From Siphlonurus alternatus (taxonomy: Eukaryota; Arthropoda; Insecta; Ephemeroptera; Siphlonuridae), in NCBI GenBank assembly GCA_949825025.1, contig OX463779.1, positions 22,922,816-22,986,815 on the forward strand: a stretch of DNA of 64,000 bases. The letters run 5' to 3'. A program made the translations under genes and the position numbers. Shown here in pieces: positions 1,805-48,177 of the stretch; the first letter of the stretch is position 1; each line of letters opens with the position of its first letter. The notes beneath the pieces are model-generated. The model had not been told where the DNA came from and searched no databases. It saw only the letters and a list, made by a program, of their open reading frames with translations.

Positions 1805-1810
1805 TTTATT
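1805..1810 (-). terminator. Polyadenylation signal of protease gene 1
   Basis: AATAAA on the minus strand, about 85 bases past the stop codon at 1894-1896. The same signal sits about 85 bases past the stop of the paralogue (8527-8532), which supports both. Confidence 0.6.
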
Positions 1811-1893
1811 GTTACTAGATATGCATGCAACAATTCAGGGTTGATATTGGGTCTATCTTTAGAGCCAATGCAGCTTCAACTGAGAACCACAGC

Positions 1894-7142
<5,249 letters not shown>

Positions 7143-8526: not shown

Positions 8527-8532
8527 TTTATT
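8527..8532 (-). terminator. Polyadenylation signal of protease gene 2
   Basis: Minus-strand AATAAA about 85 bases beyond the stop codon at 8616-8618, at the same distance as in copy 1. Confidence 0.6.
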
Positions 8533-8615
8533 GTTACTAGATGTAGATGCAACAATTAAGGGTTGATATTGGGCCTATCTTTAGATCCAATACAGCTTCA
8601 ACTGAGAACCACAGC

Positions 8616-11600
8616 TTAAGGGCGGATGGTGACTCCAGCGTTGGCCGCGATCCAGTCGAGGTAGAAGGTGGTGCGGGTGAAGGCAGCGGGGGCTCCAGAC
8701 TGGCAACCAGCAGAAGAACCGAAGCTCACGATACCGATCTCGGAGGGAATGCCATCAGCCTCGTTGATGACCAGGGGGCCACCAGAGTCACCCTGCAAGG
8801 ACAATCAAGATTATCCAGTGTTCAGTTTCTATATCAACATATAATCTGTTTTGTTAAATGTATAATGGGAAGTAGCAACCTGATACTCATTACTCAAACC
8901 CTTTTCAATTGAATCCTCAAAATCGCTACAAGCCCCTGTTCACGGTTGATAACAGGAACCTACATGTCGAAAATGTCATGACCATAATATCTTTCAAGTT
9001 TCATATTGTCGTCTGCATAATCAAACTACATTCCTGCACCCCCCGCTTCATATTACAGTCACGACTTTGCCCCTATTATAAATCATTCCATTTATTGCAT
9101 TACATGCTTGCATGTTGGACCTTTCCATCTTGCACAGAATGCAAAGTGCAAACCAAATCCAATAGTAAAAAATTCTTACCCATTATTCATCCATAACGGG
9201 TCCCTCCTAACTGTTAATTATTTAATAAGAACAATAACCAGGCGCAGATCAAGAAAAATAATCTTCGGAGCGGGCTGCCTCCATAAGGCCAATGTTAAAA
9301 AAAATATTAGAGTGGGGGAAATGCCTATATTGCACATGTTAAATCCAAACTTTTGAGGGGCGAGGGGGGGGGAAGGCTGCAGCCTTCCAAACTCCTCCCT
9401 CCCTGGATCCGCGCCTGACAATAACACTACATATGTGCATGTATACCAAAAAAGCTTATCTTTATTAATGTAAAGAAGAAGAAGATGTTAAATTTATTCA
9501 AAGACATTTTTGTTGTTTCACTCATGAATCTAAAAATTAAATTGATTACATAAATATACAGATCTATTATCACAGTACGCGACTACTTTCAGAAAAAAAT
9601 GGTAACGCATAATTTTCAATAAAGTTCACATCAGCTAGTATGTTTACGAAAAAGAACTGCTATATACATATGTATCATTATATATTGACAAAACCTGTAA
9701 AGTTCTAAGTTAAAATGTGTGTTGATATTAATTATATAGACTTACGTTGCAGGTGGACTCGGTGCCTCCTTGGGTGCCGACGCAGATGACGCTGTCGCGA
9801 ATGGAGACGTTACCGTAGGTAAGGGCGCACTCTTCATTGGTGATGACAGTCACGTCAACGAACTTGAGGTCATTGGTGATGCCAGGAGCGGCTGCAATAA
9901 TTAGCAAATATATTAAATTACAATACATAATATACAAAAGCATAAACTAGTTTTGACTTTTATATATAGCATTTACAAAGTATTTCACATTGTTTACATC
10001 GACTTGAGGATTAATATCAACGAATTGTTGTGCAGACTCACCGTCAGAGATCTTTCCCCAGCCGGACACGCGGACGCGCTCTCCAACGAACAGGTTTCCT
10101 TCCGAGGAGCGGGCAGGCAGACGCACGGCTTCGATGTCTGCGGATCACCAAGCAATTTAGAAAGACGTTTAACAAGAAAATACAGCATGATACTTTGTAA
10201 TTTGGCAAATCTATTTAAATAACTTTTTTAGTGTCAGTTTTGTCTAAAATAATATTATACAAAGCACTAAGCAGTACACATATCTAATTGATAAGTATTT
10301 TTTTTTTAATAATTCATAAAAACAAAATCAATAGTTGATTTTCATATTAATTTAAGAGATAAATTATTCATGCATATGAATAATGTGCCATATAATTTTT
10401 TTTACTGTACTCAAATCAAATGTAGACAAATAAAATATGTCAACCATAATTATATAGCAGTTTAAAATAGGCAGTTAGAAAATCTCAAAGTGTCAAAAGA
10501 ATGGACAGTTAATGCACAATTAAATCGTTTCACTAGTTGTGAGCTCAAGCTACATTAAAATAAAAAGTTGACCACGGCGGAGACTTACTGGGTCCAGAGA
10601 CGGAACGTCCCAGGCGGACAACGGCGATGTCATTGACGATGAAGAAAGAACCGTAGCTCTCGTGGGCGAGGGCGTCAGTGGTGGTCACGATCACGCGGCC
10701 GGGCTCAGTCTCGTCGCGGATGTTCAGAGCACCAGCATGGATTTCCCAGGAACTGAATCTGAAGACACCACAAATACAATAATCAGTAATTGTGTTTCAG
10801 ATTTACTGGAGAGTGCACTTCAATAATTTAACATATTAAGAACCTGCCAGGAAAATTGAAATAAATTTCTCTTTCACTCCTTACTGCAGCAAATATCCTT
10901 AACCATTAAATATATGGCAATTTAGCATCAATAATATCTTAGTCGATAATACATCGATACTATATCACCATGCATCGGAGAAGCACATTTTTAAATCGTC
11001 AACTATGTTATACTTTGGCAAAGGGAGAACTCAAATAAACTTAAGTCACTGTTCGTTGTAAAAGGTCTAAAAACCTCACATAAAATAACTGTGGAAGTTA
11101 TTTGAAAGTTATTTCAACATTGCTTAACTTCGATGAGCTACCAGCGGTGATATTTTGCTTGGTGATTGACTTACCCGCTGACGCAGTGAGCGGCGGTGAG
11201 GACAACAGAGTCAGAGATCAGGGAGCCTCCGCAGAAGTAAGAGCCGTCCATGAAGATACCGACCTGGTACTTGAACTGACCTACGGAGGCCAACGATCCT
11301 CCGATGATGCGACCGGTAGCGGGCACAGCGGCTACAGCAAGAATATAATAATTAAGTTGGATGGAGAGAAAAGCAGGCGTATTCGTTGGGAGTTTATTCC
11401 AACTTCCCCACCCATCGCAATTCCATACTTAATTTTATCTCACTATAACATTTACATTTTTTTTAATGATGCATCTGTTCCCCATAGTTTAATTAAAAGT
11501 TATTATAATGCATTATGTAAAAAAATTGGATTTTTTTCACAGTGGTAAGTGTTACAAGATACAATTTTACATACAACTTTTCCTTACAAGAAAATTTCAT

Positions 11601-12205
11601 CTCCATACAAACGAATGGAGCCAAATTTTTCTTGTAAGGAAAAATTGTATTACAACAATTAATAAGAATAGTTGTATCGTGTGATACAGCTATTCTGCGA
11701 ACAAAAACTGACTGTTGAGTAAAATAATTATATACACATATATATATATATGTGTATATAAAGCTGGATCATATGATGTAAAATAGTGAATATTTGAAAC
11801 GGGTGAGGTAATTTTGTTGAATACTCACGGAGGATGGAAGGGCGAACCTTGACCATGGGGCGCACATTAGCCCAGTCGACGGCCTGCCAACAATAAAAAA
11901 AAAAAAATGTTAAAGCATATCTATTCAATATAAATCATAGCAGTACATCATAGTTATATGGAGCAGGAAGTTTATGACTACTATTATATATATTATACAA
12001 ATTTAATTTTATAAAAATTATAATAACTATGTGTCAATTAAAAAAATTAAATCTTTTTAATTTTCATATATATAAATTTAAATATTTTCCATGCATAAAA
12101 TTGAATATATTTTTATTTGTGTTAAATTTTCACAGTTTAATATCGAGTAGGTGTATTTACCTGAGCGGCCGCGACGAGCATCAAGCAAGCAATGACAGTC
12201 TTCAT
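8616..12205 (-). CDS. Brachyurin/chymotrypsin-like S1 serine protease, copy 2
   Basis: Tandem paralogue of the preceding gene with the same seven-exon plan: 12205-12161, 11883-11829, 11331-11175, 10758-10589, 10137-10042, 9891-9746, 8792-8616. The exons again total 282 codons. Starts [10 protein letters not shown]..., signal peptide ending about AAAQ; zymogen cut after Arg41 before IIGG. Triad His82, Asp129, Ser226 in CNGDSGGP; pocket residues Ser220 and Ala as in copy 1. Differences from copy 1 include one codon fewer before the activation site, one more in exon 5 ([11 protein letters not shown] against LPTLSETSLF), and WEIHA in place of WAIHC. Exon 7 differs at only one residue, whereas most intron sequence has diverged. 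Both copies look intact, so both are likely expressed isozymes. Confidence 0.93.
9239..9417. mobile_element. hAT-type MITE with 8-bp target duplication
   Basis: A 179-bp element inside the last intron of protease copy 2. It begins CAGGCGCAGATCAAG and ends CTGGATCCGCGCCTG, imperfect terminal inverted repeats of the CAG...CTG type. It is flanked by the exact 8-base repeat ACAATAAC at 9231-9238 and 9418-9425. An 8-bp duplication with CAG ends is the hAT hallmark. A relative lies at 48481-48651, sharing the internal words GGCCAATGTTAAAA and AATGCCTATATTGC. Confidence 0.85.
11573..11648. repeat. Small foldback repeat in a protease intron
   Basis: Arms of about 34 bases (TTTTCCTTACAAGAAAATTT and its complement, TTTTTCTTGTAAGGAAAAA) surround a spacer of a few bases. 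It could form a long hairpin if transcribed. No coding content. Confidence 0.6.
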
Positions 12206-15649: not shown

Positions 15650-18600
15650 CATGAAAGTCTTATGTTGAACATGGTAAATGCTTGGAGACTAACAAGTAAG
15701 ATGTCTTCTTGGACTGATGGACATACCTCGTCATGAGCTTGTTTGCATTAAAGGAAGGAATGTAGCTGAAAATTGCGAATCCTCATGACTAGTATTTTTA
15801 CAGCCCGACTCTCACCGTCTCGAAGCTCTCCGCCCTCGGTGCCTGTCTTGCGTGGGGTCTCCGCCGGCTCGGGAGGCAGTTCGGACAGACGCGGCAGCAG
15901 CGAGTTCCAGAGCGCCTCACCCAGGCTGGGTAGGGGCTCCGCTCGCATTTGCTGGGCCTCCAGTGAGAACACATTACCCTCGGCAGCCACGAAACTGCGC
16001 CACGACACACCGTAGCCATAAGCTCCGGGAGTAGGGTTCCTGTAAACCATTCAAGAACTCTAGAAAATTTGCTTTAGAGTCTTTAAAGGGTCTTACTTTA
16101 AAACAGGAAAAATTAACACCCCAAATTTTTCTCGAAGTAAAAATTATTTTTATTAATGTTAAAATTAATCTTAATGAGTATTAAAAAAGTAGTAGTTGAA
16201 TAAAAAACTATGTAGCAATTAGAATTACTTCTAGAATTACAGTACAATTATTATATATAATTTAAACATATTATATTCCAGGACCAAATCTAAAGATGCA
16301 TACAATTATAGCATTGTGTATTACCCGTGTCGTATGAAGTCGACCCAGAGTCTTTTTATTAAGGAGGAGAGTCGATCCTCGGCAGCGGTGAGGCGACGTC
16401 CAAGAGCGCGTGCCAACAGTCCCGGACCCAACAGCAGCACCACGTCCGTCCCGTGCGCCGCGCCTGAGGAGCATCGAGCAACAAATCATAGTATAATTAT
16501 GTATTTTATCACATTAAATATTTAATATTTGACACTTTATTTCATCAAGATAGGAAAACATTTGGTGGATATTAGCATTAAATTAGCTTAAAGATTTATT
16601 CGGTTAATAGTTATGATAAAGTTGGTATACTAGCTTGTAAAGGCACGTGTATGTTTATGGTATGTATATATGAGTCGGAGTGGCAAGAAGAATTTCAATT
16701 ATAGTAGAATACGTTAGTGTTTTAATTATTGATACTTCGATTATATAATTTTAAATTATTTTTTTGCATGTTTTTACTTAATTGCTACAGGTAAACTTCT
16801 TTTCTTTCTAGTACAAGACATTGAGACCTATAGTGCATACCTGATGAGTTGATGCCACTGTGGTAGACAAGATCTGCTCCGGGAAGGGCGGGGTGTGTTC
16901 CCAACTGGTAGAGGAACACGGGGGGCGCGGATACGCTCTCTGCCAGGACTGAGGCAGTGAGTGCGTGAGGGGCCCGGTACTGAGCGTCCGAGTACATCTG
17001 TGCATATAAACATGTGTGAGCTGAGACGGAAGCAGTCTTCATATTGAGGTAATGTATTACAAGAGGATTGACAAGTTGTTTCAAAACTTTACTCTATGAA
17101 AATTAAGTAATTCGTTACGCACAATTTCCTTAAAATGCAACACGCCCCTCACACGCGCGTGTAATTTTTGTTTTTTCTACGAAGATTTGAATGAGGGATT
17201 TAATAGCATTATACAAATACAATAAAACCTGTTTCTAGTCTTATAATCTCTAAATATAAAAGATAATTATTATTAATTTTTTAAAATGTCCAATGAAATT
17301 TGTTCTACTTCATTTAAGGACTTGAAATGTTAAAGATCGATTATAACTTGTCATAACTTGTGACCTCACCTGAATGAGCTGAGCGAGGAGCGCCTCCGCG
17401 TCGCCTTGTCTTGCTCGAGCCACGTACTGGAAGCAGAGCAGCTCACGCACCATGGAACCACGCCTCGCCAGACCGGCCTGCACCGTGAGGGCGGGCACGG
17501 CAGCGCGCTCGGCGAACTGCAACAGCTGCTCGTAACCTTGCTGCGCCAGCTCGCCCCAAGACGCTGCAACACAAAGCCGTTTCACAATACACTATCAATC
17601 TTGCTTAACAAGAACTGCAGGTTTTATGGAATTTCATATTGATTTGAAGCTATGCAAGTATTACACTGCTTATAATCTTTATTGAAAGAAAGGTTCAAAA
17701 TTCATATAATTTATGAAGAAATTAAAGGCTTCCATTTTCAGGCGAACCTTATGCAAGTATAAACTTAGGTCTTGAGCTGAAACTTGCTTTACTTTCTATG
17801 GTCCAGGGACACTTACCAAGAGCTGCAACTCCGTCGTTGGCGGTGACTCCCATAAGCACGGGCACGGAGACTCTTCGCAGCGCCTCTCGTGGTTCCAGTG
17901 GCAAGTAGCGGTCGCTTTCGGGTAGAAAGGTGTCTGTTACAGGAAGCGGGATCTCAGACCAGTTGCCACCCTGTGGAGTAGTGTGGAGTCAGAAGTCAGA
18001 ACTGACGATCATTGCCCTAAATTGCATATGCATATATATGCAACCCGCTCCGTTTCAGTGCTGAACAAGTTGCCTAACATCAAGGTGAGATCATAATTTT
18101 TTTATGTAATCCAAGTTGAAGAGAAAAAGATGGCGCGAACGGGCAAACAGCCCTTAGCGTCACTGTGTGAGAAAAATTAATTTGTTGATCTACAACGCGA
18201 AGAAAGTATTTGTAACTGTGCAAGGTGAATCTTAAATAAATTAGCAATGGATACCAGTGAAATGATGGACTATTTTAGAAAGGAATTTGATGTACTGAGA
18301 AATTTGTTGTTCGACGAGCGTGCTGAGCGTATTGCACTGCAAGCTCAGTTCAACCACGAAGTAAGCTGCCTGAAAAGGGCCAACGACGAACTTCAACGAG
18401 CACTGGACGCACAAGAAAGTAAGAACAGAAAAAATAACATTATAATTTTTGATGTTGATGAAGCCTCTGATCAGACATGCGAGGAGACTGTGACTGACAT
18501 TTGCATGTCATTAAAAGTAGATATGGGTGAAAATGGAATTTCGGAGGCATTCCGTGTTGGCCGCAACCGAGGTAAACGACCAATTGTATGCAAGATCGCA

Positions 18601-21600
18601 AATTTTAATAAAAAATGTGAAATAATGAGGAAAAATAAGCAGTGTGGAAACTTCAAAATACTTCATGACCTAACAAAAAAAGAGCGACGCGATCGCAAAG
18701 ATCTCCAGCACCACCTCAACATAGCTAGAGGCAAAGGCAAGCATGCATTTGTTAGACACGGCAACATAGTGGTAGATGGCTTCACATATACAAAAGAGCA
18801 GTTGTCAAGTGCACCATCACACAACAACGCGACAATGGCGGTGGACGAGGCAGAATGCAGCAAAAATGACAAACCGACAACATTGCAGTTTTCCGAAACA
18901 CATGGCTCTGACGTCAGTTTTTCATCAGTTAGGGGAGCAAGCTCTGAGAAATGCATCCCCACAAACGTGCGACCTTGGGAACTGAGGAGCCGAGATCGCA
19001 CCGCGGCGAGTAACGTGAGACCAGCAGCAGAAATCCCCCGCCCCCGTCAACCAGCTCCAGCTGGCAAAACTGTGCCACGAGATACACTGTACAAAATTAA
19101 ACGTGCGCCCACCACTCATTCACATGTTGTGCAAAGAAAAAAAAATGATAAATCGCTCAATTAATTAAATCAATTAAAACAAATTAAAAATTTTATTAGC
19201 GTACAATGAGTGAATCAACAAATTGGACTAAGAGACTTACTTTGGACACTGTGTAATACTTGAGACTTTTAAATTTATATTTTTAAGCAAATAATAAAAA
19301 AATAAAAAAATCCAAAAAAATTGTAAAACCCCGCAGGTAGAGATGATATAATAAGACTTAATTGTTTTGAATCCTAACTCTGTATTTGTATTATGTGAAT
19401 TTGAATAAAACCTATTCTGAATCTGAATGTAATCCAAGTTAATCCAACCGTTTCACCTAAACAAAAGTATGACGCTCCTTAAAATTGCCACCCTGAAACA
19501 CGCCTGCATATAGCTCTGGAGGGAGTCTCCAAGACTCATTATTACAATGCATAAAGTACTTTTTCTTCTGACATGTGCCATGAGAATACATTGTGGAGGA
19601 GTGAATGTGTTCATTCATTTTTTTCTTAATAAATGTGTAAATTGTACGGTTATTAATTCCTCCGCCGTTCCATAGTACTAATAAAAATCACAAAATACAT
19701 TGTATATCTGATTAATATGATAATATAATTAACATTGGTTATTCCATTAAATTTAAAAAAAAATAACGATGAAAACTTGTGCACTGGATTTTTGTTTCTG
19801 AATCAACTGCCATACAACTAATGGTTAACCGATATTAAATTACACGTGGAACGTGTTATGAGATTCATGAGCTGACACTGACCTTGTACTGGTTGTGGAA
19901 GGCACGCATCAGCTCGGCGATGCTCTTGGAGCGAAGACAGGCGAGAGTGGCACCGGACGTGGTGCCGAGGCAGCCGAGGTTTCGTGCCACCTCGCGGGAC
20001 GCTGCCAGAACGGGGGCCGCACCTCGAGAGCCACCCGCCCATGGAGCAAGGGGACTGCCCGACATGGCAACCACTCGCTGGAACAAACCTGGAGGAGAGG
20101 CGTCTTTAAGTCTGCATTATGATTGAAGAAACCCTATAATATTTGTTTTATTTGTTATATAAGTTAATCACTTTTTTTTTTTAATTTCTTCGTTAACTAC
20201 TTTTATTACTAACCTCAATCAGTTTTAGAAAAAAAATATGGATTATTATTTCTTTCTTTGTATTCTCTATATGTGTAGTAATTAAAAATACTAAAGAATT
20301 TTATTTTCATCAAATATTTGTTTATAACACAATTTAAACACCGTTAAACGAAAAAAAAAATGTTGTAAATTTTTAAAATGTGCAGTATTAAAATTTTGGA
20401 TTGCCATCACAAAGGCTATTATTGCAGTGTGTACACTGTGTACCTTAACTATTGTTTTAGCTTTAAATGTGTGTTTGAAGTTTCTAGACCAAACACCATA
20501 CCTTTAGTTCTGGGTGAGGTGGCGTGCAGCAGAGCACTGGCTGCCCCTGCTGCGTGACCCAGCAAGGTCACTGACCCCGGGTCACCGCCGAACGCAGCAA
20601 CATTCTCACGCACCCACAACAGAGCAAGGTACTGGTCCAGTAAGCCCATGTTGCCGCGAGACTCAGCCACGCCCAAGCAGAAAAATCCTGCATAGCATGG
20701 TTTCAATTATCGAGGTCAACTCAATGCCAGCAAACACTTCAATTTTTGAAAAGTTTCAAAATGGTTTTGCGGGTTCTATAAAACGTTTTATATTTTCTTT
20801 ATATTTCATGGCCGTAAGTTGCAGCCATCTATCCGAGAATAATCTGAGCCTTCTGAGGATTATCCGTGGATTATTTACTAATTAACATTAAAATTCTCGG
20901 ATAATTGTCGGATTTTTCCAAGATAGGCTGGCTGCAACTTACGGCCATCAATTCAGTTTATTAGATACAAACATATACAAAATTCCTGTAAGAAACATTA
21001 TCCTAGTAACTAAGTAGCATTTTATTCTCAGATATTAAAGCTGAGATTGAAGCCACTCCTGGACAAGCTGCAGTGACTTACCGAGTACGTTGAGGCGGTA
21101 GCTGGCGGAAACGACGATGAGGCCCTCTGCAGCCAGCTCGTGTCCGGGGAAGCGGCCCGGCCAGCCGCTCACAAATCCGTCCCCCTCGAGGATCACGACC
21201 ACGGGGAAGCCCCGGTACCCACCAGCAGGAACCTGTCAGCACCACATGGAAAGCTCGTCAAACAGCTCAAAGGAAGTTGCGTTTGTGTGATTTAATGAAC
21301 TGTATACCTTCAGTAATATATATCTTGAGGAATATATCAATATGAATAATAAACTTAAATTAATAATTGCGTTATTAAATATTATACGTTAACAAAAAGT
21401 AAAATTAACATGTCTTTATTTTGTATGACAATTCATGCCAAGCTGTAAATAAGACTTGTAATGAAATAATATGTTATATTAATTATTTCAATTACATAAA
21501 ATTTGTTTTTACACTCGTCACCTTGGAAAATTTCCAACTTGCAGCCTTGTTAATCACCATGCTTTGTGATATTCTTACGGGGCATAGTGATTAACAAGAG

Positions 21601-29734: not shown

Positions 29735-29963
29735 ATACTAACCATAAATTGAATTTTTGTAAAATGTTAAAAATGTTAATTTGTCCCCATACTAATACTA
29801 ATCGGAGTCGGAGTGTGTTAGTGGTACGAAGCAGACGTGCTTGTGTGGAGCTCCGGCGTTCAAAATTTTTGGTGTGTTTTTACACAGTTATAAAGTGTAT
29901 AAGCTATAAAATTTATAGTGAAATACCGTGTATAAAGGCAGGGTTGAGTTAAAATACCCCAAA

Positions 29964-31091
29964 ATGGGGAGTTTTAGGGAAAACACCCTTGAAATTGATT
30001 TCTCAGCGTGTGGGAAGGCACGCCCACCTGCTGCCATTATACATTCTTGGCTAAAAAGTGTTGTTAAAATACCTGTTGAAATTATAGATGGTATACAATT
30101 AGATGGTGAAAAGTCTAGGGAATACATTAAGTTAATTAGTAAAGAAGAGTATGACAAAGCGTTGGACAATATAGTTGGTGAATATGAGTTTGAAGACAAT
30201 GTTGGCAAGAGGTGGCAGATTCCGGTGCGTGAAATTACTGAAGTAACAATGGTAAGAGTAATGAATGTTCCCTTTGAAGTACCAATGGAATTAATTGCAA
30301 ATGCTTTATCTGCATATGGAAAAATCCTGTCCAGTGAATTTGAGAAGTGGGGGCGTGGTTATGCATTACCTGTGAAGAATGGTGTTAGACTGTTTAAAAT
30401 GGTGCTAGATATGCAAATTCCATCGTACATTCCTTACTATACTGACGAGGAGGACGAGGTCACCAAAGCTCAAGTTATTTATACTGGACAAAAACGTACA
30501 TGCAAGATTTGTAATGATACCTCGCATTTCGTTCGAGATTGCCCGCGGCGACGAAGTGTCTACCGCCGGCAGCCGGGTTACTACTATAAACAAGTGCGAC
30601 CGGTTATTAACAGTCAAATGGAGTTTCCTAGTTTGAATGAAGGAAAAAATGATGAGAAAGAACAAAATGAGACAAATATTACAAAAGAAGAAGAAGGAAA
30701 AAAAGAAAATGAAACCGTGATGGAAGTGCAAGAAAGCCAGGAAATAATTGAAGAGACACAAATATCCCAAGAGGTCAAGGTTGATGGAAAAGACAACAAG
30801 GTTGATGCGGAGAGAAAGAGACAGAGGACTAAAACCAACGACTCCGAGACAAGCACGCAGCTTGAGGGTGGTGGGCATGTGACTAAGAAAGTGGACAACA
30901 AGCCTAGCCCTGTGGTTAAAGTGATACAACAACTGCAACGGGGTAGCAGAGGTGGCGGGGCTGGCAGTCCATTGAACTCAAGTCGTCCTCGCTCGCGTAC
31001 GTCATCGGCCAGTAGTGTTGACAGCGACAAGAGTACAGAATCACGTTCGACGAGCAACAGCAAAGCAGAGAGTAAAGTAAGAAAAAAATAA
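29964..31091 (+). CDS. ORF1 (gag-like, zinc-knuckle) of the Tx1-like LINE
   Basis: About 375 residues from the first in-frame ATG (the open frame begins slightly earlier without one). The N-terminal half holds an RRM-like fold candidate (TMVRVMNVPFEVPMELIANA). A single CCHC zinc knuckle follows, CKICNDTSHFVRDC, spaced C-x2-C-x4-H-x4-C. The C-terminal half is highly charged (Lys/Glu-rich) and ends in a Ser/Arg tail. In this LINE group ORF1 coats the element RNA. The frame is intact although ORF2 is not. No overlap with ORF2; the gap is about 157 bases and includes a TA microsatellite. Confidence 0.85.
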   Translation: MGSFRENTLEIDFSACGKARPPAAIIHSWLKSVVKIPVEIIDGIQLDGEKSREYIKLISKEEYDKALDNIVGEYEFEDNVGKRWQIPVREITEVTMVRVMNVPFEVPMELIANALSAYGKILSSEFEKWGRGYALPVKNGVRLFKMVLDMQIPSYIPYYTDEEDEVTKAQVIYTGQKRTCKICNDTSHFVRDCPRRRSVYRRQPGYYYKQVRPVINSQMEFPSLNEGKNDEKEQNETNITKEEEGKKENETVMEVQESQEIIEETQISQEVKVDGKDNKVDAERKRQRTKTNDSETSTQLEGGGHVTKKVDNKPSPVVKVIQQLQRGSRGGGAGSPLNSSRPRSRTSSASSVDSDKSTESRSTSNSKAESKVRKK

Positions 31092-31121
31092 TAAATTGTA
31101 TTTTGTACATGTATAAAGAGA

Positions 31122-31163
<42 letters not shown>
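31122..31163. repeat. (TA)n microsatellite between LINE ORFs
   Basis: A pure TA run of about 40 bases inside the inter-ORF spacer of the Tx1-like LINE. Confidence 0.95.
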
Positions 31164-31166
<3 letters not shown>

Positions 31167-31248
31167 TAAAATTACAGTTGAGATTATATTAAACAAATGT
31201 ATATATTTGATATTTAATGTATTATAAATAATATAAATATAATTTACA

Positions 31249-34200
31249 ATGTTGAATAAAAATCTCAAATTAACCACACTTAATATTAATAGAATCAAAC
31301 AAAATTTTAAAGTAAAAATTTTGCAAGATTAGATAAAACAAGTTAATCCTGACGTATTTTTTCTGCAAGAAGTTACTTCACATGAATGTACGGCATGGTT
31401 TACCAATTATGATAGTGTGGTTAATTTGGGTGATAGATGTTACGGAGTTGCTATATTTTGGAAGGCGACACTAAAAGCCAAAGAGATTGGAAGACTTGTT
31501 GATGGGAGGGGTTTGTCTATTATTATTGACCGTATTTTATTTGTTAATGTTTATGTACCTGCTGGAGCAAAAAATATTGAAAATAGAAAAATATTTTTCA
31601 GTGAAAAAATAACTCCATTATTTAATACAAACAGCAGGGAAATAATATTGGCAGGTGATTTTAACTGTGTAATATCACCGCTTGACCAAAAACCAGGGTA
31701 TAATAAGTGTACTCAATTAGAAACATTAATAAATGGATTGGAGTTAAAAGATGCATGGAGGGTAACTGAGAAAAATAAAATAATGTATACGTTCAATGCT
31801 AGTAGATTTGCATCGAGATTGGATCGAATTTATGTATCTAAAGAATTGGTTAAAAAAATAAGCAAAGCAGTTATAAATCCAATTGCTATTTCTGATCACA
31901 TAGGTTTTTCAGTTATATTTAAGGAAATATTGGAAAATAATTCTGATAAGCAAAATTTTGAGAATATGTGGAGATTAAATACTAGTATATTGCATAAAGA
32001 AGAGGCATTAAATAAATTTAAAAATTTGTGTGAATCGTGTTTAAGCAAAGAAAAAAACTTTGAAAATACGATAACATGGTGGGCCCAATATGCAAAACCG
32101 GAAATAATCAAATTTTGTAAACAACAAAGTCAAAATATAGAAAAATGGAGGAAATATTCCATGGAATATTATAATATTGTTTTTAAAGAAATGGTGGAAG
32201 AAAATATGAAAAATGGTAATTATAAAGAGGAGATAAAAGAGGTTAAAGCTGAAATAATAAAATTACAAGAAAAATCATTGGAAGGATTAAAGATTAGGGC
32301 AAAAAGTGGATGTAATATTTCAACTGAAAAAGCGGGTATATATCAAGTAATGAGACAGTATAAAAGGGGTAAAAGACAAAAAATAACAAAAATTACAGAC
32401 GATAATTCAAATAAAATATATACAGAAGAGAAAGAAATTCTAAACGTGTTTTATAATCATTATAATGATGCATTTGATAACAAAGGGGAGGGATTATTAC
32501 AAGAAGATGATATATTAAAATTTATAAATGAAAATAAGGTGAAAATATCGGATGATGATCTAGTAGAATTAAAGGAATTAGGTAGACCATTAACAGAAAA
32601 AGAAATAGGTAATGTTATACAAGCAGGAGAGAATGGTAAATCTCCTGGTGTAGATGGGCTTCCAATAGAAATATATAAAGTGATGTGGCCTTTGCTGGGG
32701 AAAGCATTCACAAGAATGTACAATGATGTTTTGCATAATGGGTTTCCCAGCGAAGATAATTGTTTAGGAATTGTAAATTTAGTGCCTAAAACAAAATATC
32801 CAAAGTTTGTTAGAGATTTTAGACCACTTACATTGTTAAATACTGATTATAAAATATTTTCTGCTACAATGGCTAATAGACTCAAAAAGGTATCAGGTAA
32901 AATTATTGATCCGGTGCAAACATGTTCAGTTCCTGGAAAGAAAATTTCTGATACAATTAATGACATTGTAAATGCTTCACACTATATGTTTAATAAAGTT
33001 AAGAAGGGTGCGATAGTTACTATAGATTTTAAAGCAGCATTTGATAGAGTTTATCATAAATATTTGTGGTTAGTGTTGCAAGAAAATAAAGTGGATGAGA
33101 GGTTTATTAAAGGGATACAATTTTTGTACAGAGATGCTACATCGCAAATAAAGATTAATGGAAAATTAACAGAAAAATTTAAAATAAAAAGATCTGTAAG
33201 ACAAGGTTGTCCTAGTTCAATGGTATTATTTTGTATATCAATTCAACCCTTAATTAGTTTATTGTTAAAAAAATTAAATGGAATTAAAATATATGATACA
33301 ATTTTTAAATTAGCATCCTTTGCAGATGATTTAACAGTAGCCTTAAATTGTAATGGGGAACTTACCACTCTTAAAAATTGTATTGATAATTATTGTCATT
33401 TTTCGGGGGCAGCAATAAATGAGAAAAAATGTGAACTAATAAAATCTAAAGAAAGCCGGGAAAATTATGCATGTGAATGGCTAACAGAAAAAGATTCTAT
33501 AAAAATTCTGGGTATTACAATTGGTAAAACATTTGCACAAACTATGACAAAAACCTGGGATAGTATTAACGTACAAATTATGAATATTTAAGTTGAAAGC
33601 AAATGGAGGAATATATCATTATTAGAAAAAGTAGATTTTATAAAAACATTTGCACTCTCAAAAATATGGTATGTGGCAAGTGTATTACCTATTACAGCCA
33701 GTGTAGAAAAAAAAATAAATAAACATGTGAACTTCTTCCTGTGGTCAGGTGATATTTTTCGTATGGCAAAAGAAAAGTGTTATTTACCACCGGAGAAGGG
33801 AGGAATAGGATTGACACACATCAAAGCTAAATGTGATGCTATATTATTGTTGTCTGCAATAAGGGCTAATACAGGTCAAGGATCAAAAGTTCTTGAATCT
33901 ATTTTACAATTTTATACAGAAATACATGGTGATCAATTACCGTACTGGCCTAATGTGGTTAAAAATAATAATGGAATTTCGTATTTACTTGGATTAATAT
34001 TGTACTTTAAATATGATGATGATGTAATGCTATCATGTAAAAATATTTATAAACATTATATGGAAATATTAGGTTATGGCACCAAAGTTGTTGTAACTGC
34101 ACCAGGATCAATAAATAATGAACATGCAATAAATGTGTGTTGGGAGAATGTTTATAAATGTATTGACTATAAATTTGTTGATAAAACAATAAGATCGACA

Positions 34201-34623
34201 TGGATAAGGGTTGTTCATAATTTATATGCAACTAAATTTAGAAAAAAAGCTATTGGGATAACAAATGATGATAAATGTGACATATGTGGAGAGTGTGACA
34301 CGTTATTCCATAGATTAACGGCATGTGGCACTGCTAAGGATATGGTACAATGGGTTTTTCATATTATAGATTGTATTACAAACAAACGAAATACTGTAAC
34401 ATTAGGTCATATGCTATATGGAGATCTTTGCGAAATTAGGCCTCCTGAAATAAAAAATTCAATACTGTGGCTCATTGGATATTTGATTGATTGTTTAGTT
34501 GGACATTATAAAGTTTACAGTTTAAATTGTTTTAAAATATATATAAAACAAAGATGGTTGTGTTGTAGAAATATTGATTCTTTTAAAAAGAATTTAGGAA
34601 ATTCTTTGGATATATTATTTTAA
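31249..34623 (+). pseudogene. ORF2 (endonuclease-reverse transcriptase) of the Tx1-like LINE
   Basis: One frame runs from ATG 31249 to the stop at 34623, about 1124 codons, interrupted only by TAG at 31330-31332 and TAA at 33589-33591. N-terminal AP-endonuclease signatures: LAGDFNCVISP, SRLDRIYVSKE and ISDHIGFSV. Reverse transcriptase: RDFRPLTLLNTDYKI, TIDFKAAFDRVYHKYLW (motif A), RQGCPSSMVLFCISIQP (motif B) and ASFADDLTVAL (motif C). A C-terminal CCHC-like finger (CDICGECDTLFHRLTACG) lies near codon 1010. Family role: nicks target DNA and primes reverse transcription. The two stops make this copy inactive; few other lesions suggest recent decay. Confidence 0.88.
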
Positions 34624-39544: not shown

Positions 39545-39756
39545 ACGTCATAGAAGAAACTGTAAAACAACAAAACAAAACAACAAAACAATAAATACAA
39601 ACAAATCACAACAATATACAGAGACCATCAGAAAAAAAAACAATTAAAACAAAAAGAAAGATTACATATTTTTTATGATTCGCTACAACGAACTCAAGAC
39701 ATTTTCAGACATTTTATTACTTAAAAACTCTCTGACTGAATACAACTCCTTTTCAA

Positions 39757-42674
39757 CTAAAACATTCTTAAGTTTTTTTTAAACAATAAATTACTATCTA
39801 TAATTCTCAAACAGTTCGGCAAAAAATCATACAATTTTGCCGTTTGATAGATAGGACTTTTTTCGAGCAAGCTCGACTTATGCGCTGCCACACACACTTT
39901 ATCTTTGTTTCTAGTGTCATAGGCATGAACATCACAATTTTGGGTATAAATTTCTGGATGATTACGCCTATAAACACAACAATTTAAAATGTAGATGCAT
40001 GGCAATGTTAACATGTTAAGTTTTTAAATTGTGTAACACAAGTATCTCTCTTCTTAAAATTTAATATTGTCCGTATACTACGTTTTTGCAAAACAAAAAG
40101 TCTGTTGAGCTTGTCCGGGTATTGACCCCAAAAAATTATGCCATAAGCTAAATGCGGATAGATATAAGCGTAATAAATACTTAACAGTGATTTTTGAGAC
40201 ACTTGTTTTCTAAGTGAATATAAAATAAAATTAGCCCAATTAATTTTTTTACATGTTTCATTGATATGTTCGGTCCAATCCAGGCACTCGGTTATTTTAA
40301 ACCCTAAAAATTTAGTACTTACAACCCTTTTTATAGAAACTTCATTTAAATATATTAATAAGCTCCTATTAGGAATACTTCTTTGGGAATGAAATTGCAT
40401 GTAATTAGTTTTTTCTGTATTTATTATAAGCCTATTTAGCTGGCTCCAATTTGAGACTTGATTTACTGTTTTATTAACCTTTATAAAAAGTTCATCCACT
40501 GTATCCGCTATAACAACAGCAGTAACGTCATCAGCAAATTTAATTATTTGGGCATCCGTTACATATTTAGGTAGATCATTTATAGCAATACCGAATAGGG
40601 TAGTTGAAACTTTACCCCCCTGCGGGACACCCAAAGAAAGGGGTAATACGTCTGACTTAACACTTATATCAACATATTGCGTTCTATTTGACAAATATGA
40701 GTCCATTAGCTCTAAACTACTCTCATTAAATCCAATATTTTTTAATTTTTCCAACACCATGTTTTTATCGAGGCTATCGAAAGCCTTGGAAAAATCAAAA
40801 AATATCGCAACACAGAAATTTTTCTGATCAATATTTTTATAAATTAAATTCAACAGTTCAAATGACGCAGTGGTTGTTGATTTATTTTTCAGAAAACCAT
40901 GTTGACACTCGGATATTAAGTTATTATTATATCTGTATTCCATAATTTGTTCATTCAAAAAGCTTTCAAGGGTTTTACCGAATACCGATGACAAAGAAAT
41001 AGCTCTATAATTGTTAATTAAATTTTTGGGTCCTTTTTTATGAAATGGTCTGACTTTTGATTGCTTTAATTTATTTGGGAAGCGACAATCAGAAATAGAA
41101 TGATTTATCAGTGATGTCAACGGAACACTTAGCAACGCAGCGGAATTTTTCAACACACAATACGGTACCTCATCAGGACCCGCTGCATTTTTGTTAGGCA
41201 AATCTTTTAACTTTTTTAAAACTTTATCGCAATTTATTTGTTGAAAACTAAATTTATGATCACAATTTATCGAATGGTTGTCTAATGAGCCTACAAACGG
41301 TTCGGGATAATTATCTCGCACTAAGGTCTCAACAGTCTTTACAAAATAATTATTAAAGGCATTAGAAATAATTAATGGATCATTAATAATATTGTCCCCA
41401 ACAATTAATTCAGCAATGAAACTGTCATTTGGAGGTTTTAAATTAGTGGAGCTTTTGATGATATCCCAGCATGTTTTCATTTTATTTACTGATATATCTA
41501 TTTTATAATCATTGTCTTTAATTATTGCATCAAATATGTTTTTATTATAATCTTTTAATTTTTGTTTATACTGGGGTACAAGACTAGAGTCAACTTTAGA
41601 GAGTTTATGAAAATGTCTTAAGTTATTACCCTCTATTATTAAATGTGGATTATTTTTTAGCCATTGCGGTTTTTCAATTTTGTTTTTCAAATTTTTAATT
41701 TTTTTGGGAAATGCTTCATCAAAATGGAAAAAAAATATATCAAAAAATAATTCCCATCTTTCCTCTGAAGATTGAATGGGCTTCAATAAGCATTCCCAAT
41801 TTTCCTTCATTAAAATTTTATTGAAATAATCCAAATTTACAGGGTTAAAATCTCTAGTAATTCTAGATAAAGGCGCTGCATACAAATCTTTGGTATCTGT
41901 TGAAAAATAACAATATAGTAATGTATAACAATGGTCTGACAATATTGGTTTTTTTGTAATACAGTCCATTTTTAAGTAACAGTTGTTTGTAATCAAATGA
42001 TCAATTTGAGTGGAACTGGTATTAGCTATCCTGGTTGCCTGATTATTAATTACTTTGAAATTAAATGATTCTAAAACATCCAGATAGGAATTTACTGTAT
42101 TGTCAGTTTTTAAAATATTAATATTTATATCACCTCCCAGAATAATTATATCATTTTTGTTTTTAAGTTTTAACATTTTATCACACAAAATTTCTAAATT
42201 CACTAAAAATGGTTTAATGTTAGATTTAAAAGATATTCCATCAATAATGAGATTGAAATTATTATCATCTGGGGGTCTGTACAGTGAGGCTATTAAAAAC
42301 CATTGATTAGATAGCTTAACTTTTGCTGCGGAACATTCAAAACACGATTCAATGGATTTAATTTTTATTTTTTCTGCTTTTAAATTTTTTCGAACATAAA
42401 TTGCAACCCCTCCTTTTTGCCTTGATTTTCTACAAAAAAATGATATTAATACATAGTTTTTAAATTTAATTGATTCAATTTCATGTTCCTTTAATCCATG
42501 CTCACAAATAACTAAAACATCAACTTTTTCTAACTCCAAATCAATTTCTAGAGGTTTTATTTTATTTTTAAAACCAGGTATATTAAGTTGAAATAATCTT
42601 AAAATTTGTTCTGTTCTCTGTGAGCAAGGGATGTTATTATATGTTTGTTGATTTAGGCTGCTTAGAAGGGACAC
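39757..42674 (-). pseudogene. ORF2 (endonuclease-reverse transcriptase) of the macrodomain LINE
   Basis: The main frame runs from about 42683 to the stop at 40008 (about 890 codons). The next 85 codons, typical of the ORF2 C-terminus (MLTLPCIYILN, YDTRNKDK, KLYDFLPNCLR), continue in another frame to 39757. A one-base deletion near 40015 in the TTTAAAAACTTAAC stretch explains this. Endonuclease motifs: ILGGDININI, QIDHLIT and ILSDHCYTL. Reverse transcriptase: NNYRAISLSSVFGKTLE, FFDFSKAFDSLDK (A), SLGVPQGGKVSTTLF (B) and IKFADDVTAVV (C). The frame overlaps the end of the macrodomain ORF by about 40 bases in +1 phase and has no ATG near its start (GTG at 42674; TGA just upstream at 42684-42686), so translation would need coupling to the upstream ORF. 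Confidence 0.85.
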
Positions 42675-43968
42675 TAGAGCATGTCATTGAATTACTACGC
42701 AAAACACGTGTCGAGTGAGATGATGATTTAGGGCTTGAGGGAGGGTCCATTTTGTTTTCAAAATGTTCAAAATTAAACTCTTTAACCTTTGTTTCATTAG
42801 AGATTTCACCCTCAAAGGAAGATTTAGCATCACTAAAATGATCATCAAAAAGTTTCAAACGTTCCGTGAGTTCAGACTTATTTTTAATTGTATTTATAAT
42901 GAATGTACGAAGACGAGGGTCAAGAGTGCTAAGATCAATACAGTTTACTATATTTTCTTCTACACTAGTTGACTCATGGGAATTGTTTGATGAACCATGC
43001 AAAATTTGTAATGAACTCACATTTGCAGTACTCACATTTTTATCACATGATGCGGTACAAGCCATTTGACTTACCACAGATTGACTATCTAAACAAATAG
43101 GTACACAGGAGCACTCGGTGTCCTTCTCTTTCAATACGTCTCCCTCCTTGTACTCGGACGGAGGTGCGGGTGAGGCACTGTCAACCACAGCACCTTCAGC
43201 CACGTTCGCCGGCGCGTACATTCCATCGTTCTCCGCAACGTGCTCCACCTGCACGAGCAGAAGGCCATGGTCCACCGAGCCGAGGTCTGACCCTACCCCG
43301 CCCGGGGTAGCGGGCATCTGCTTCTTCTGCTCAGCCGTAGTTGGCACCAACGGTCCCTCCACTACCAATGTGCCATGCGTGACACTGGAGCGGGTACCTT
43401 CTACAGCAGTAGAGGTCTGGCAAATTTCAGGGGTTGCATGGACCGTCGGGAGTGCATTGGGGGGGACACCAGCTGTATTGACAGTTGCCGATGTTGCTTG
43501 CTTGTTTTTCTCTATGTAAAACTTCGGAGTCGTATCAGCTTTTGACTCTCTCCAGGCGTAATACGCCGTTATTTCAATGTCCAAATCACTAAAAATTGAG
43601 ATGATATCCTTCTTAACTTTCACCCAGTTAAAACCATCCCTTCCACATCCCAGACGTGGAATAGCAAGCTTCTTAATTTGTAAGATCTCACATGAACGTC
43701 TGAGGTTTTTTAGAGAAGATATGAAATTTTCGTACTTTGGAATTGATTTGGACAGAGTTTTTGTGATGAGATAAAAGATAAATCTCTCATCATTTGGCAG
43801 GACCGCAACTTCCCCTGTCACCTTAAGCTGACTCAACAGAAAAGGTACCTGCTTGAATTTTTTATTGAATTGAGTTACGACACCGCGCTTCTGTTTGAAG
43901 TCTTCACCCACACAATGTGCGAGTGAAGTACCAGCAGGAGAGTCAAACAAGTCACCTTTTTTTTCCAT
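42637..43968 (-). CDS. Macrodomain (TARG1/OARD1-like) ORF of a LINE
   Basis: 443 residues. Residues 1 to about 145 form a macrodomain of the TARG1/OARD1/Poa1 type: KGDLFDSPAGTSLAHCVGED, a GVVTQFNKKF loop, TGEVAVLPND, FYLITKTLSK, KYENFISSLKNLR, LAIPRLGCGRDGFNW, then DIEITAYYAW. The GCGRDG Asp111 corresponds to the TARG1 catalytic Asp; the TARG1 active-site lysine region reads SKSIPKY, with Ile where I would expect Lys, so glycohydrolase activity is uncertain. Such domains bind or hydrolyse ADP-ribose. The rest is a Ser/Thr/acidic linker with a helical part near residues 340-390 (DLSTLDPRLRTFIINTIKNK). ORF1 overlaps its first 94 bases in another frame; ORF2 overlaps its end. The frame is intact. 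Confidence 0.85.
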   Translation of the reverse strand: MEKKGDLFDSPAGTSLAHCVGEDFKQKRGVVTQFNKKFKQVPFLLSQLKVTGEVAVLPNDERFIFYLITKTLSKSIPKYENFISSLKNLRRSCEILQIKKLAIPRLGCGRDGFNWVKVKKDIISIFSDLDIEITAYYAWRESKADTTPKFYIEKNKQATSATVNTAGVPPNALPTVHATPEICQTSTAVEGTRSSVTHGTLVVEGPLVPTTAEQKKQMPATPGGVGSDLGSVDHGLLLVQVEHVAENDGMYAPANVAEGAVVDSASPAPPSEYKEGDVLKEKDTECSCVPICLDSQSVVSQMACTASCDKNVSTANVSSLQILHGSSNNSHESTSVEENIVNCIDLSTLDPRLRTFIINTIKNKSELTERLKLFDDHFSDAKSSFEGEISNETKVKEFNFEHFENKMDPPSSPKSSSHSTRVLRSNSMTCSSVPSKQPKSTNI

Positions 43969-44759
43969 AAAAAAAAATTCACATTACTAACACGTCGTTG
44001 TTGTAAATGACTTGTATTCTGCCTAGGAGTAGGTCTCTGATTGATGTTAGGAAAAGTTTCATCATATAAGGATTGTAATGGTGAGAAGGAATTTTGAAGT
44101 GGAAGGGGTTGCGGGGTAGGCCAGGGTGAATATGGTCTACGTTGAGGTTGATGCCGCGGCCCCTGTTGTGAATGCTGCTGTGGCACACGGGGTGGTTGCC
44201 GCGGCGTCTGATACGACGGCGCGCGAGGTGTCTGATGGTGCAGAGACCCGCGTCGCAACGTCTGTCGGGGCTCACGAGCCTGCTGCTGCTGCCAAGTTGG
44301 TGACTGCTGCCACTGCGGCGAACGACGGTACGACGTCACATGGTTATGTTGTTGCTGTGGGCCTTGGCGATCGCTCTCTCGCTGCCCATCTCCCCAAGGT
44401 CGTTCGTTACTTCGTTGAACAGCAGACGGTATAGCATTACTAACTATTTCCAGCACAACAACTTTAATATCCTCCTTAAACTGAGAAAATATATCTCTCA
44501 TATCATTTTGTATTGATGAATATAATGAATTATGCGATGGAGGTTCACGACTAAAAAAATTAGACGTGGCTTTATGGCCATTATAGTTATTATTATTATT
44601 GTAACTATGCATATTGTAGTTACCATAATTTTGCTGTACTGGATTATTTCTTCCATCAAGTGACGACCATTGTGGCACTGATTTAGAAAAAGAATTGATA
44701 TCTTGATTTTGAGCATATTGTGCACCAGTGATGTTTTGATACTGATTTGGAGCGGCCAT
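43875..44759 (-). CDS. Q/P/R-rich ORF1 of the macrodomain LINE
   Basis: 294 residues from ATG 44759. Low-complexity and probably disordered: N/Q/Y-rich at the start, a hydrophobic helix near residues 85-115 (DMRDIFSQFKEDIKVVVLEI), then Gln/Pro/Arg-rich repeats (HQTPRAPSYQTPRQPPR). No zinc knuckle or esterase domain is seen. The likely role is RNA binding and ribonucleoprotein assembly. About the last 26 residues run over the start of the macrodomain ORF and look like out-of-frame coding. The frame crosses the slippery sequence at 43956-43962, which could join it to the macrodomain. Confidence 0.75.
   Translation of the reverse strand: MAAPNQYQNITGAQYAQNQDINSFSKSVPQWSSLDGRNNPVQQNYGNYNMHSYNNNNNYNGHKATSNFFSREPPSHNSLYSSIQNDMRDIFSQFKEDIKVVVLEIVSNAIPSAVQRSNERPWGDGQRESDRQGPQQQHNHVTSYRRSPQWQQSPTWQQQQAREPRQTLRRGSLHHQTPRAPSYQTPRQPPRVPQQHSQQGPRHQPQRRPYSPWPTPQPLPLQNSFSPLQSLYDETFPNINQRPTPRQNTSHLQQRRVSNVNFFLWKKKVTCLTLLLVLHSHIVWVKTSNRSAVS
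43956..43962 (-). promoter_or_regulatory. Candidate -1 ribosomal frameshift site A_AAA_AAG
   Basis: In the ORF1 frame the codons read TGG AAA AAA AAG GTG. The last seven bases of the A run plus G form X_XXY_YYZ in the zero frame. Slipping back one base continues GGT GAC TTG, exactly the macrodomain frame. Use would give a product of about 707 residues. Alternatives are initiation at the ORF's own ATG (43968-43966) or a one-base indel in the adjacent T9/A8 runs of this genomic copy. Confidence 0.5.
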
Positions 44760-45080
44760 ATTGCCAGCTTTGGAGAACGATTTTAATATTTAATATAATT
44801 AGTTCCCCACACACACTAACCAGCACTTTTATATCACTTTAAATGCACTAATTATTTATGAATAATTTGATACTAAATACACAACAAAACACTAGAAAAT
44901 AACATACACAAATTGAAGAAATAAGGAGCCGAAACGAAAGATAATGATGCTACTCGCAGGTGCTGCAACCTATTAATTTAATAAGTTTTTTAGTTTCAGT
45001 TTAAAAAGTTTTTATTGTATTAAAAAAACACAGTACTAGATATATTATACAAATAGTTTAGTTAGATTAAATATATAATA

Positions 45081-47485
45081 CCCACACAGCACACAATGGA
45101 TATTTTTTAGATGATATCTAGATATAATCTGTATAGAACTTTTTACTTATCTAAAAATTATATAGATATTATCTATGAACTTTCATGGATATTTTCTAGC
45201 TAAATGTCCTCTATTTTTTGGATAAAGTTATCTTGTTAATATCTTATCCTATAATTATACAGTTTTTATCTAGCTATATTATCCTCCTATATACTATGCT
45301 TCTATTTTTAAGTAAAAACACACAAAATAATTATATTTAACATAAATTTTTATTATTAACAACATTTCGCAATCAACATATATACATTATAGGAAATTTT
45401 AAAGATATTGTGATAAATCATCATACATGTAGAATGATAAAAAAAATAATGTGACAAAAGTGGTCTTCATTTTTTATCAAAACATTACTGCTGCTGACAT
45501 ATTATAACATAAATAACACATATATTATATAATACTGTATGCATGTTTATTATTAATATTATATTATTAATTATAATATTGAATGCATATAGTCATTGCA
45601 TGCTTACAGCATACAGTATAACAAATTCCATATAAAACAACAGTAGGCATACAGTATGCATTATATATGTGTTTTGTTTTGTTATTAAAAAAGTAAAAGA
45701 ACCTTAATTGAGCAATACAGATGTACTAAATTATTATATATATATGCAAGAGTATATAAAAATACAATGAAAACAACTGCAATTTAGTATGCATACATTA
45801 AAAATTATCTCACTTATTCATTTTAAAAACATATACACACTGTTCTCCCTACTTGCTTGCATGGCTTCTTTTCCTGGTCAGCATTGCTGATCTGTAGTGA
45901 TGATCTGATGATATTGCCCATTATATACAGCTGGCTGCAGTTTTCAGAACCAATATATGTTGCACTATATAATTTATGCCATGGGTAGATAAGCTGGGTC
46001 TAGGTATTGGATGTTGTCATGTCTGGACCTGTAAAGTAAAAAAAAAAAAAAACATATAAACATCACTATATTCATGTTTATGCTGCTTGCAGAATGGCTG
46101 CATTGGTCATTATGAATATATAGCCACTGTATGGCCAATGTGAAATTTGCTCCTAGAAAACAATAGGGGTAGTGAAAACTTATATAAATATGTATGCATA
46201 TTGCCTGCACCTGCATATGAAATACTGTACTGAAATTTTAAAATAATGCTGCTTAAATGTGACATATTGTTATGAATTATATACTGTGTATACAGAAATT
46301 ACAGTATACAATTTTCAGTAATAATTATAGTAAAAATACAGCATCCATAAGTACACAGCTATAAAACGTATGCATACATAATTATAGAGTATGCATATGA
46401 TATCATAAGCGCCGCGGTCGGTGAATCCAACCTAAAATTGTTAATAATATATCATGCATATTATAATATATAAGTACAAGTGCTGGCCTGAAATAATGAT
46501 ATTTTAACACTGGCAAAAACATTGTAATAATTAACCCTCATTGCATACCTTATAAATTACTAGACGACTTGAAACCTGCATGGCTACTCCAATATGTACT
46601 CCAAGGCTTACATTGGTGCAGCGTGCAGTCAACCGCCGCAGCCCATATAATCCCACTTTTCTGAACAAAAAGTACACACATTGTTAAAGCCGACCAAAGA
46701 TTTATGAGCAGAAAATACTTATAATTGATTTCTTACCTTCCACTTGAAGATGTTTTCGGTTTTAGATGAGAAATTTACATATTTTTCACGCAAAAAAACG
46801 TTGTGTTTACATTACAACAAACATGCAGAATTTTCGAAGTGCGCATGACGTCACATAAAAATTGTACCCGTGATGCAAAAAAATCGCTCCAGATAGAGAA
46901 TAGATAAAATAATCTATAAAATATCTAGATAAAAATATCCTCAGATAAATAATAGATAAAATTATCTATAAAATATGCAGTCAGTTTTAAAAAGTTTAAA
47001 TACGCATTAATTAATTTAATTCATTAATTAAAGAAAATTTTAATTAATTTAGGTTTCAAAATTTAAATAATTCAAAATTTCAATGGAATAAACAAAAATC
47101 TACATAAAATTTATATATTAAAATTATAAATTTGAAGTATATAATAAACATTAAATAATAATAATTTGTGTTCATTCTTTTTTTATACTTTATATACAAT
47201 AAATCTATTAAATCTGTATTATTTTATTAATTATTATAAATTTTAACTCTCATGTGCATGTTTAAAATTTGGATAACTTTATCTATTTAATATCTCTTCC
47301 AAAATAAGCAAAGACAAAAGATAGCAGTATCCAATTTTTATCTACATATTATCTCGGCACTTTAGATAAATATTGTATAAATATTAGATATCGTTATCTT
47401 GAATTGTGGTATATCCACTTAATATCTGCATATACAAAAAATATCCAAAAAATATCTAGATGATGAGTTTTGTGTGCTGTGTGGG
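45081..47485. mobile_element. 2.4-kb TIR DNA transposon of unknown class
   Basis: Ends CCCACACAGCACACAA and its exact complement TTGTGTGCTGTGTGGG, with TA on both outer sides (probable TA duplication). Subterminal DNA is full of ATATCTAGATAT / AGATAAAATTATCTAT-type words in both orientations, also near 46880-46970. No transposase ORF is recognisable. On the minus strand, open segments bounded by splice-like signals (for example about 46741-46800 with donor AAG|GTAAGA, and acceptor TTCAG| near 46662) could be a captured or decayed exon pair; this is weak. Confidence 0.7.
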
Positions 47486-47630
<145 letters not shown>

Positions 47631-47935
47631 ATAAAAATCAAATCAACCTTGATTATTTGTAACTTTTGTAAGGAGCAGTTGTTTAATTTTCACTGTAAAG
47701 TAGGCAACTTTTGAAGCATGTCAGTAATGCAAGTTGCAAAGCTTACAGGCTGAAACTGCTGAAAGCAAACAACTAAGCATGATTATATAGAGCAAATTAG
47801 CCAACTCTGGTCAACAAAAGTTACTCACTATTATCACTATCAGCACTTTAAGTCTTATTTTGTGTCATTCAGTTTGGCTGATACGAACCATGGTTAATAT
47901 GAAATCTGGTTGTTTTTTCATGAATCGCACCGTAT

Positions 47936-47942
47936 GTATATA

Positions 47943-48003
<61 letters not shown>
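47936..48003. repeat. (TA)n microsatellite
   Basis: About 65 bases of TA with one TG interruption. Confidence 0.95.
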
Positions 48004-48007
<4 letters not shown>

Positions 48008-48177
48008 AAGTACATTATAGCTACATAATTCGAATTTGCTACAAAAATTTAATTATTTAACAGATTTGACCTGTAAATACAATTATTCTCACAATTGGGG
48101 TCACATTTAGCGATTTAGCGCCGACATTCCTGCTGCATGACTGCCGAAGGGCGTCTCTCTCGTCCGTTTCTCACAAA

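Follow-up and report, generated by a model that had tools for sequence, protein, structure and literature searches.

The genome of Siphlonurus alternatus (Ephemeroptera) harbours a group of recently active retrotransposons of ~5.4-6.0 kb without long terminal repeats (non-LTR retrotransposons, or long interspersed nuclear elements, LINEs) whose first open reading frame (ORF1) encodes a macrodomain of the TARG1/OARD1 type. One copy lies in the stretch of DNA analysed here, a window of 64,000 nucleotides (contig OX463779.1 of assembly GCA_949825025.1, positions 22,922,816 to 22,986,815), where it covers 5.4 kb of the minus strand (39545..44973). These limits were set by alignment with a near-identical copy, L044, which lies on another contig between other flanks and is 99.56% identical across 5432 bp. 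A first-pass annotation made from the sequence of the window had reported a TARG1-type macrodomain in a LINE, upstream of an endonuclease (EN) and reverse transcriptase (RT). This observation is confirmed, as is the order of the domains, whereas the claim that the macrodomain opens an ORF of its own had to be abandoned.

The macrodomain comprises 140 amino acids (43549..43968, minus strand). Its fold is closest to that of TARG1 (OARD1, C6orf130; ALC1-like class), to which it is 44% identical over 138 residues, and the matches in both sequence and structure rule out a chance resemblance. Comparison with the structure of OARD1, suggested in the first-pass annotation as a check, recovered a macrodomain fold. 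Lys at residue 70 (codon 43759..43761) and Asp at residue 111 (codon 43636..43638) align with Lys84 and Asp125, described as the catalytic pair of TARG1 (PMC9411070). All 21 alignment rows keep this dyad, as do all 21 genomic copies, window included. Judged by its sequence, the domain is of TARG1 type and appears catalytically equipped. In contrast to TARG1, a cellular enzyme of ~152 amino acids, the LINE version is an internal domain of the ORF1 protein (ORF1p). The macrodomains of alphavirus nsP3 and coronavirus nsp3 also represent this fold in parasite genomes, but the solved alphavirus structures listed are only 11-15% identical to the LINE macrodomain. The closest viral structural match, nearer than these, is VP8 of Kadipiro virus (40% identity), perhaps a further capture of a TARG1-type domain.

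Three long frames are found on the minus strand of the window copy (44789-43875, 43983-42637 and 42683-40008), and the second had been taken for a separate middle ORF. The first two are instead pieces of a single ORF1, frameshifted in this copy immediately before the macrodomain at ~43.97-43.98 kb, because L044, related copies and P0001, a 710-residue metagenome protein, read through in one frame. The 5' piece (43875..44789, stop to stop, with an ATG at 44759) encodes a basic region rich in Gln, Pro and Asn (Q/P/N), and the 3' piece (42637..43983) encodes the macrodomain and an acidic low-complexity tail. P0001 aligns successively with both pieces, ORF1 of L044 is one uninterrupted frame of 733 amino acids, and a frame of 700-789 amino acids from stop to stop is present in 19 of 20 other copies fetched from the genome (L046 has a stop inside ORF1, and ORF1 of L055 lacks an early Met). 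Both a separate middle ORF and a programmed frameshift between the two pieces are ruled out by these uninterrupted frames. Across representatives of eight subfamilies, ORF1 encodes a single protein of 690-781 amino acids with the macrodomain in the middle, within residues 255-411.

The succession of basic Q/P/N-rich N-terminal part, macrodomain and acidic tail is common to all eight representatives. In L058 and L063 the tail contains tandem repeats of ~15 residues (TTPGEESGLASVNDG). When three ORF1s were scanned with Pfam at E<=1, Macro was the sole domain above chance in each, NifZ appearing in two at chance level. No RRM, CCHC, transposase_22, PHD or esterase domain was detected in these scans, and a CCHC pattern was absent from all eight representatives; these negatives rest on sequence profiles and patterns, which a diverged domain could escape. 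Judged by these scans, the macrodomain ORF1 does not fall into the known ORF1 types I-IV (RRM/CCHC, L1-type, PHD, esterase). An AlphaFold2 model of full-length ORF1 from three alignment rows was poor (predicted local distance difference test score 38.6) and was not used.

Searching the genome (455.7 Mb, 102 contigs) with the macrodomain ORF gave 95 scored matches among 320 candidates, window included. From the other 94, the 20 copies were picked to cover the subfamilies and form eight groups. EN and RT follow the macrodomain in 20 of 20, as the first-pass annotation had expected of a genuine element. The EN-RT frame overlaps ORF1 in 19 of them (that of L052 is broken near its start), and ORF2 frames of at least 1000 amino acids are found in 17, those of L052, L056 and L060 being broken. 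Within seven of the eight groups, copies are 99.4-99.9% identical over ~5 kb, with 97.6-98.5% for L062/L063. Near-identical copies have different flanks wherever flanking sequence was inspected, which indicates recent movement. Where the end was reached, copies terminate in simple repeats such as (TAAA)n, (ATT)n or (GAATTT)n, so that dispersal, simple-repeat 3' tails and differing flanks are all as in LINEs. For L044, the window copy and L051, a shorter partner set the ends and no tail is seen; L060 lies outside this comparison. The 3' untranslated region of the window copy (39545..39720, upper limit approximate) lacks the simple-repeat tail found in other copies. Its 5' end (44950..44973) starts with GGTTGCAGCACC, the local version of a start, GGTGGCAGCACC, that is present in at least one copy of every group (8/8). 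No target-site duplication that was consistent or of convincing length was seen at the copy ends inspected. Scans of viral contigs with the window macrodomain, the RT and an ORF1 alignment as queries gave no relative, nor did a scan of genome contigs. Long AT dinucleotide arrays lie close to the LINE copy, at 47462-47639 and 47907-48056.

ORF2 (40008..42683, minus strand) combines an APE-type endonuclease with an RT, as in LINEs. The RT was recognised by Pfam in the window copy (RVT_1, E 4e-26) and in all three ORF2s scanned. The Pfam endonuclease model matched weakly in one of the three (E 0.15), and EN motifs were identified by pattern and by eye in all eight representatives. A further frameshift near its end puts the C-terminal part of ORF2 (39720..40025, approximate) out of frame in the window copy. 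Its frame is +1 with respect to that of ORF1, whose end it overlaps, by 38-104 nt in the eight representatives; none of these has an in-frame ATG ahead of the start of the endonuclease domain. Translation of ORF2 would need either non-AUG reinitiation or a +1 frameshift, and the latter would yield some ORF1-EN-RT fusion protein.

The macrodomain is under strong purifying selection, as shown by ratios of nonsynonymous to synonymous change (dN/dS, Nei-Gojobori counts) for the 28 pairs of the eight representatives. In the 11 pairs with usable macrodomain dS, dN/dS is 0.05-0.22 and lower than in both other parts of ORF1 in every case; this comparison across copies had also been proposed in the first-pass annotation. 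Where both values were usable, the macrodomain ratio lies under that of EN in 8 of 10 pairs and under that of RT in 5 of 8. For L044-L045, the macrodomain value is 0.05 (dS 0.84), compared with 0.35 for the N-terminal and 0.54 for the C-terminal part of ORF1, 0.13 for EN and 0.09 for RT. Fisher tests on five hand-picked pairs separate the macrodomain from the rest of ORF1 in all five (p 2e-5 to 2e-11) and from ORF2 in four (p 5e-4 to 3e-10); the corresponding values for L044-L045 are p 4e-10 and p 5e-4. Comparisons between ORF1 and ORF2 are safest for this pair, as the two ORFs have different histories and L044 and L045 stand together in all three trees.

In L047 the two histories differ. Its ORF1 groups with L044 and L045 (support 100/99 in the macrodomain tree, 100/100 in the N-terminal tree), while its ORF2 groups with L058 and L063 (100/100). 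Relative to L044 and L045, its macrodomain is 84 and 86% identical, and its ORF2 48%. Similarly, L050 and L053 are nearly equal in the macrodomain (dS 0.10) and have an RT dS of 1.10. The conflict between ORF1 and ORF2 trees indicates that the ORF1 module passed between RT lineages. In an RT tree, the eight representatives and P0021, whose ORF1 is not known, form one group with support of 100 in the Shimodaira-Hasegawa-like approximate likelihood ratio test. This quick tree comprises the representatives and 39 of 40 protein matches (the short P0039 was dropped), without named reference elements, and is compatible with a single macrodomain acquisition in this RT lineage.

Viral macrodomains are thought to act against host poly(ADP-ribose) polymerases (PARPs). 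For the LINE, the somewhat favoured proposal is that ORF1p is an enzyme that would remove host ADP-ribosylation from the ribonucleoprotein particle (RNP), from RNA or from the target nick. The basic Q/P/N-rich N-terminal region may coat the element RNA, and ORF1p would bring the macrodomain into the RNP. There it could hydrolyse ADP-ribose placed by host PARPs or sirtuin-type ADP-ribosyltransferases on proteins of the RNP, on the ends of RNA or DNA, or on proteins located at the nick of target-primed reverse transcription, and such removal would leave particle or nick fit for use. According to a review that also speculates about transposon RNA, ADP-ribose esters attached to proteins and to the ends of nucleic acids are both hydrolysed by TARG1 (PMC7050489). 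SIRT6 mono-ADP-ribosylates KAP1 and thereby silences L1 (PMC4695847), and the modified KAP1 would be a second possible target. The first-pass interpretation, an action at the nicked target or on element RNA or protein, is partly supported, and that role stays a proposal. Catalysis is favoured because the dyad is invariant.

Several points weigh against an eraser. In human cells, PARP1 and PARP2 act at the L1 nick and favour retrotransposition of L1 (PMC8535693), so that an element that removes their product there might do itself harm. Macrodomains can also simply read ADP-ribose, and this one may do no more. Selection on the domain is not uniformly the strongest within the element, as its dN/dS exceeds that of RT in 3 of 8 pairs and that of EN in 2 of 10: it is 0.22 vs 0.16 for RT in L047-L058; 0.14 vs 0.08 for EN and 0.13 for RT in L047-L063; and 0.15 vs 0.13 for EN and 0.10 for RT in L050-L053, where changes are few. 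In addition, macrodomain dS is saturated in 17 of the 28 pairs, and L058-L063 show no difference between macrodomain and ORF2 (Fisher p 0.63).

A serious rival, since PARPs help human L1, is a reader role: by binding the poly- or mono-ADP-ribose that PARP1/PARP2 deposit at nicked DNA, the macrodomain would hold the RNP at its target, with catalysis secondary. The gathering of both enzymes at the L1 nick (PMC8535693) would suit such a reader, as would an ORF1 in which Pfam recognises nothing else above chance. A pure reader would, however, be expected to drift at its catalytic residues, and neither of these varies in any of the 21 copies from eight subfamilies. Nor does the fold alone fix the dyad: the Lys/Asp pair as such is missing from DarG, and SCO6735 has neither residue (PMC9411070). 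A reader role is considered rather unlikely. Alternatively, the macrodomain could give ORF1p a stable basic core, packaging RNA in place of RRM or zinc-knuckle modules, its enzyme activity being irrelevant. Two features would fit a packaging fold, namely that Pfam finds nothing but Macro above chance in ORF1 and that the net charge is +7 to +9 in all eight representatives. An invariant dyad and constraint equal to or above that on the EN and RT domains would not, and such a fold is held to be improbable. A one-off event in which a host OARD1 gene inserted here or fused with the copy, without belonging to the element, as would apply if no further copies linked macrodomain and RT, has nothing in its favour and a probability close to nil. 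The 95 genomic matches and the equal order in the fetched copies refute it, and P0001, a related ORF1 from another source, is 47% identical to the nearest subfamily.

TARG1-type domains occur in other proteins with features of retroelements, as found in two protein searches with domains assigned by Pfam. P0002 combines a macrodomain with a GDSL esterase and P0004 carries PHD (under the cut-off), macro and GDSL esterase domains; from these domain sets, both are inferred to be LINE ORF1s. In P0014 the order is RNase H, macro, H2C2 and integrase. P0008 (macro and H2C2) and P0007, a Harmonia gene model with integrase and macro that may be chimeric, have a macrodomain match from the protein search that Pfam did not call. 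None of 40 matches in a protein search with EN-RT tied an RT to P0001-P0005. In the macrodomain tree, the window groups with P0001 and P0003 (86/82) and P0008 with P0014 (96/85), whereas P0002 and P0004 stand elsewhere on weak branches. Several captures of a TARG1-type domain by retroelements are likely, as far as domain order and this tree can tell. Possibly, if rather doubtfully, several retroelement classes separately captured cellular TARG1 (the LINE group, the PHD/esterase protein P0004, the esterase protein P0002, and a Ty3/gypsy-like pol in P0014 and in part P0008), in which case ADP-ribosylation would be a common intracellular defence, the macrodomain a counter-defence and ORF1 an exchangeable carrier. 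TARG1-type domains with extra regions were also seen in beetle and aphid proteins (P0006, P0013, P0017, P0018, P0019 and P0020; Coccinella, Cinara, Myzus, Acyrthosiphon, Aphis, Anoplophora), with no retroelement domain by Pfam in those scanned (P0006, P0013, P0018, P0020). Many viral contigs of IMG/VR, mostly large (L001-L035, L064-L143), encode macrodomain relatives at 26-41% identity.

Other repeats are present on the window. A second LINE-like element, recognised by eye, lies at 29922-34623 on the plus strand, with a CCHC-knuckle ORF followed by EN-RT-like frames of 752 and 343 amino acids separated by a stop. By eye only, a 311-residue ORF at 18229-19164 (plus strand) resembles the coiled-coil ORF1 proteins of L1 type. 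Two stretches of 3-4 kb, at 1786-5787 and 8508-11913, contain common repeats 6-7 kb apart with 85-95% identity in pieces.

The macrodomain ORF1 is a new ORF1 architecture that represents a known kind of capture, since retroviral macrodomains have been described in fish and none in LINEs appeared among the open full-text matches listed. The first-pass remark that no LINE with such a domain was known holds for the open full-text matches listed (one query, first 20 of 3,209), yet macrodomains in retroelements as such are known. Additional ORFs with a macrodomain in epsilon-like endogenous retroviruses of fish, which are LTR elements, are already in print (PMC4977317, citing Basta 2009), which leaves the macrodomain subclass unstated. 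Neither 'macro' nor 'ADP-rib' occurs in the main text of an ORF1 survey of 448 elements (PMC4120745), 'macromolecular' is the only such term in a paper on esterase ORF1s (PMC3905857), and a paper placing 'macro domain' beside retrotransposons (PMC5434184) merely names the gene MACROD2. The nearest parallel in design is that of CR1/L2-type LINEs with an esterase ORF1 (Type IV, ZfL2-1), which likewise have an enzymatic ORF1 domain and no RRM or CCHC, with an SGNH esterase there and a macrodomain here. Esterase ORF1 proteins have been regarded as unique among ORF1ps for their enzyme function (Schneider 2013, PMC3905857).

If the proposal is true, the macrodomain ORF1 would be the second enzymatic type of LINE ORF1 after the esterase, and would give direct access to the question whether ADP-ribosylation by the host restrains or aids target-primed retrotransposition. 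The proposal makes a sharp, testable prediction, because the active site comprises two residues and the element is young, present in many copies and available with full-length frames. The conservation of a domain of the ADP-ribose-removing type hints that the element must handle ADP-ribose tags in order to copy itself.

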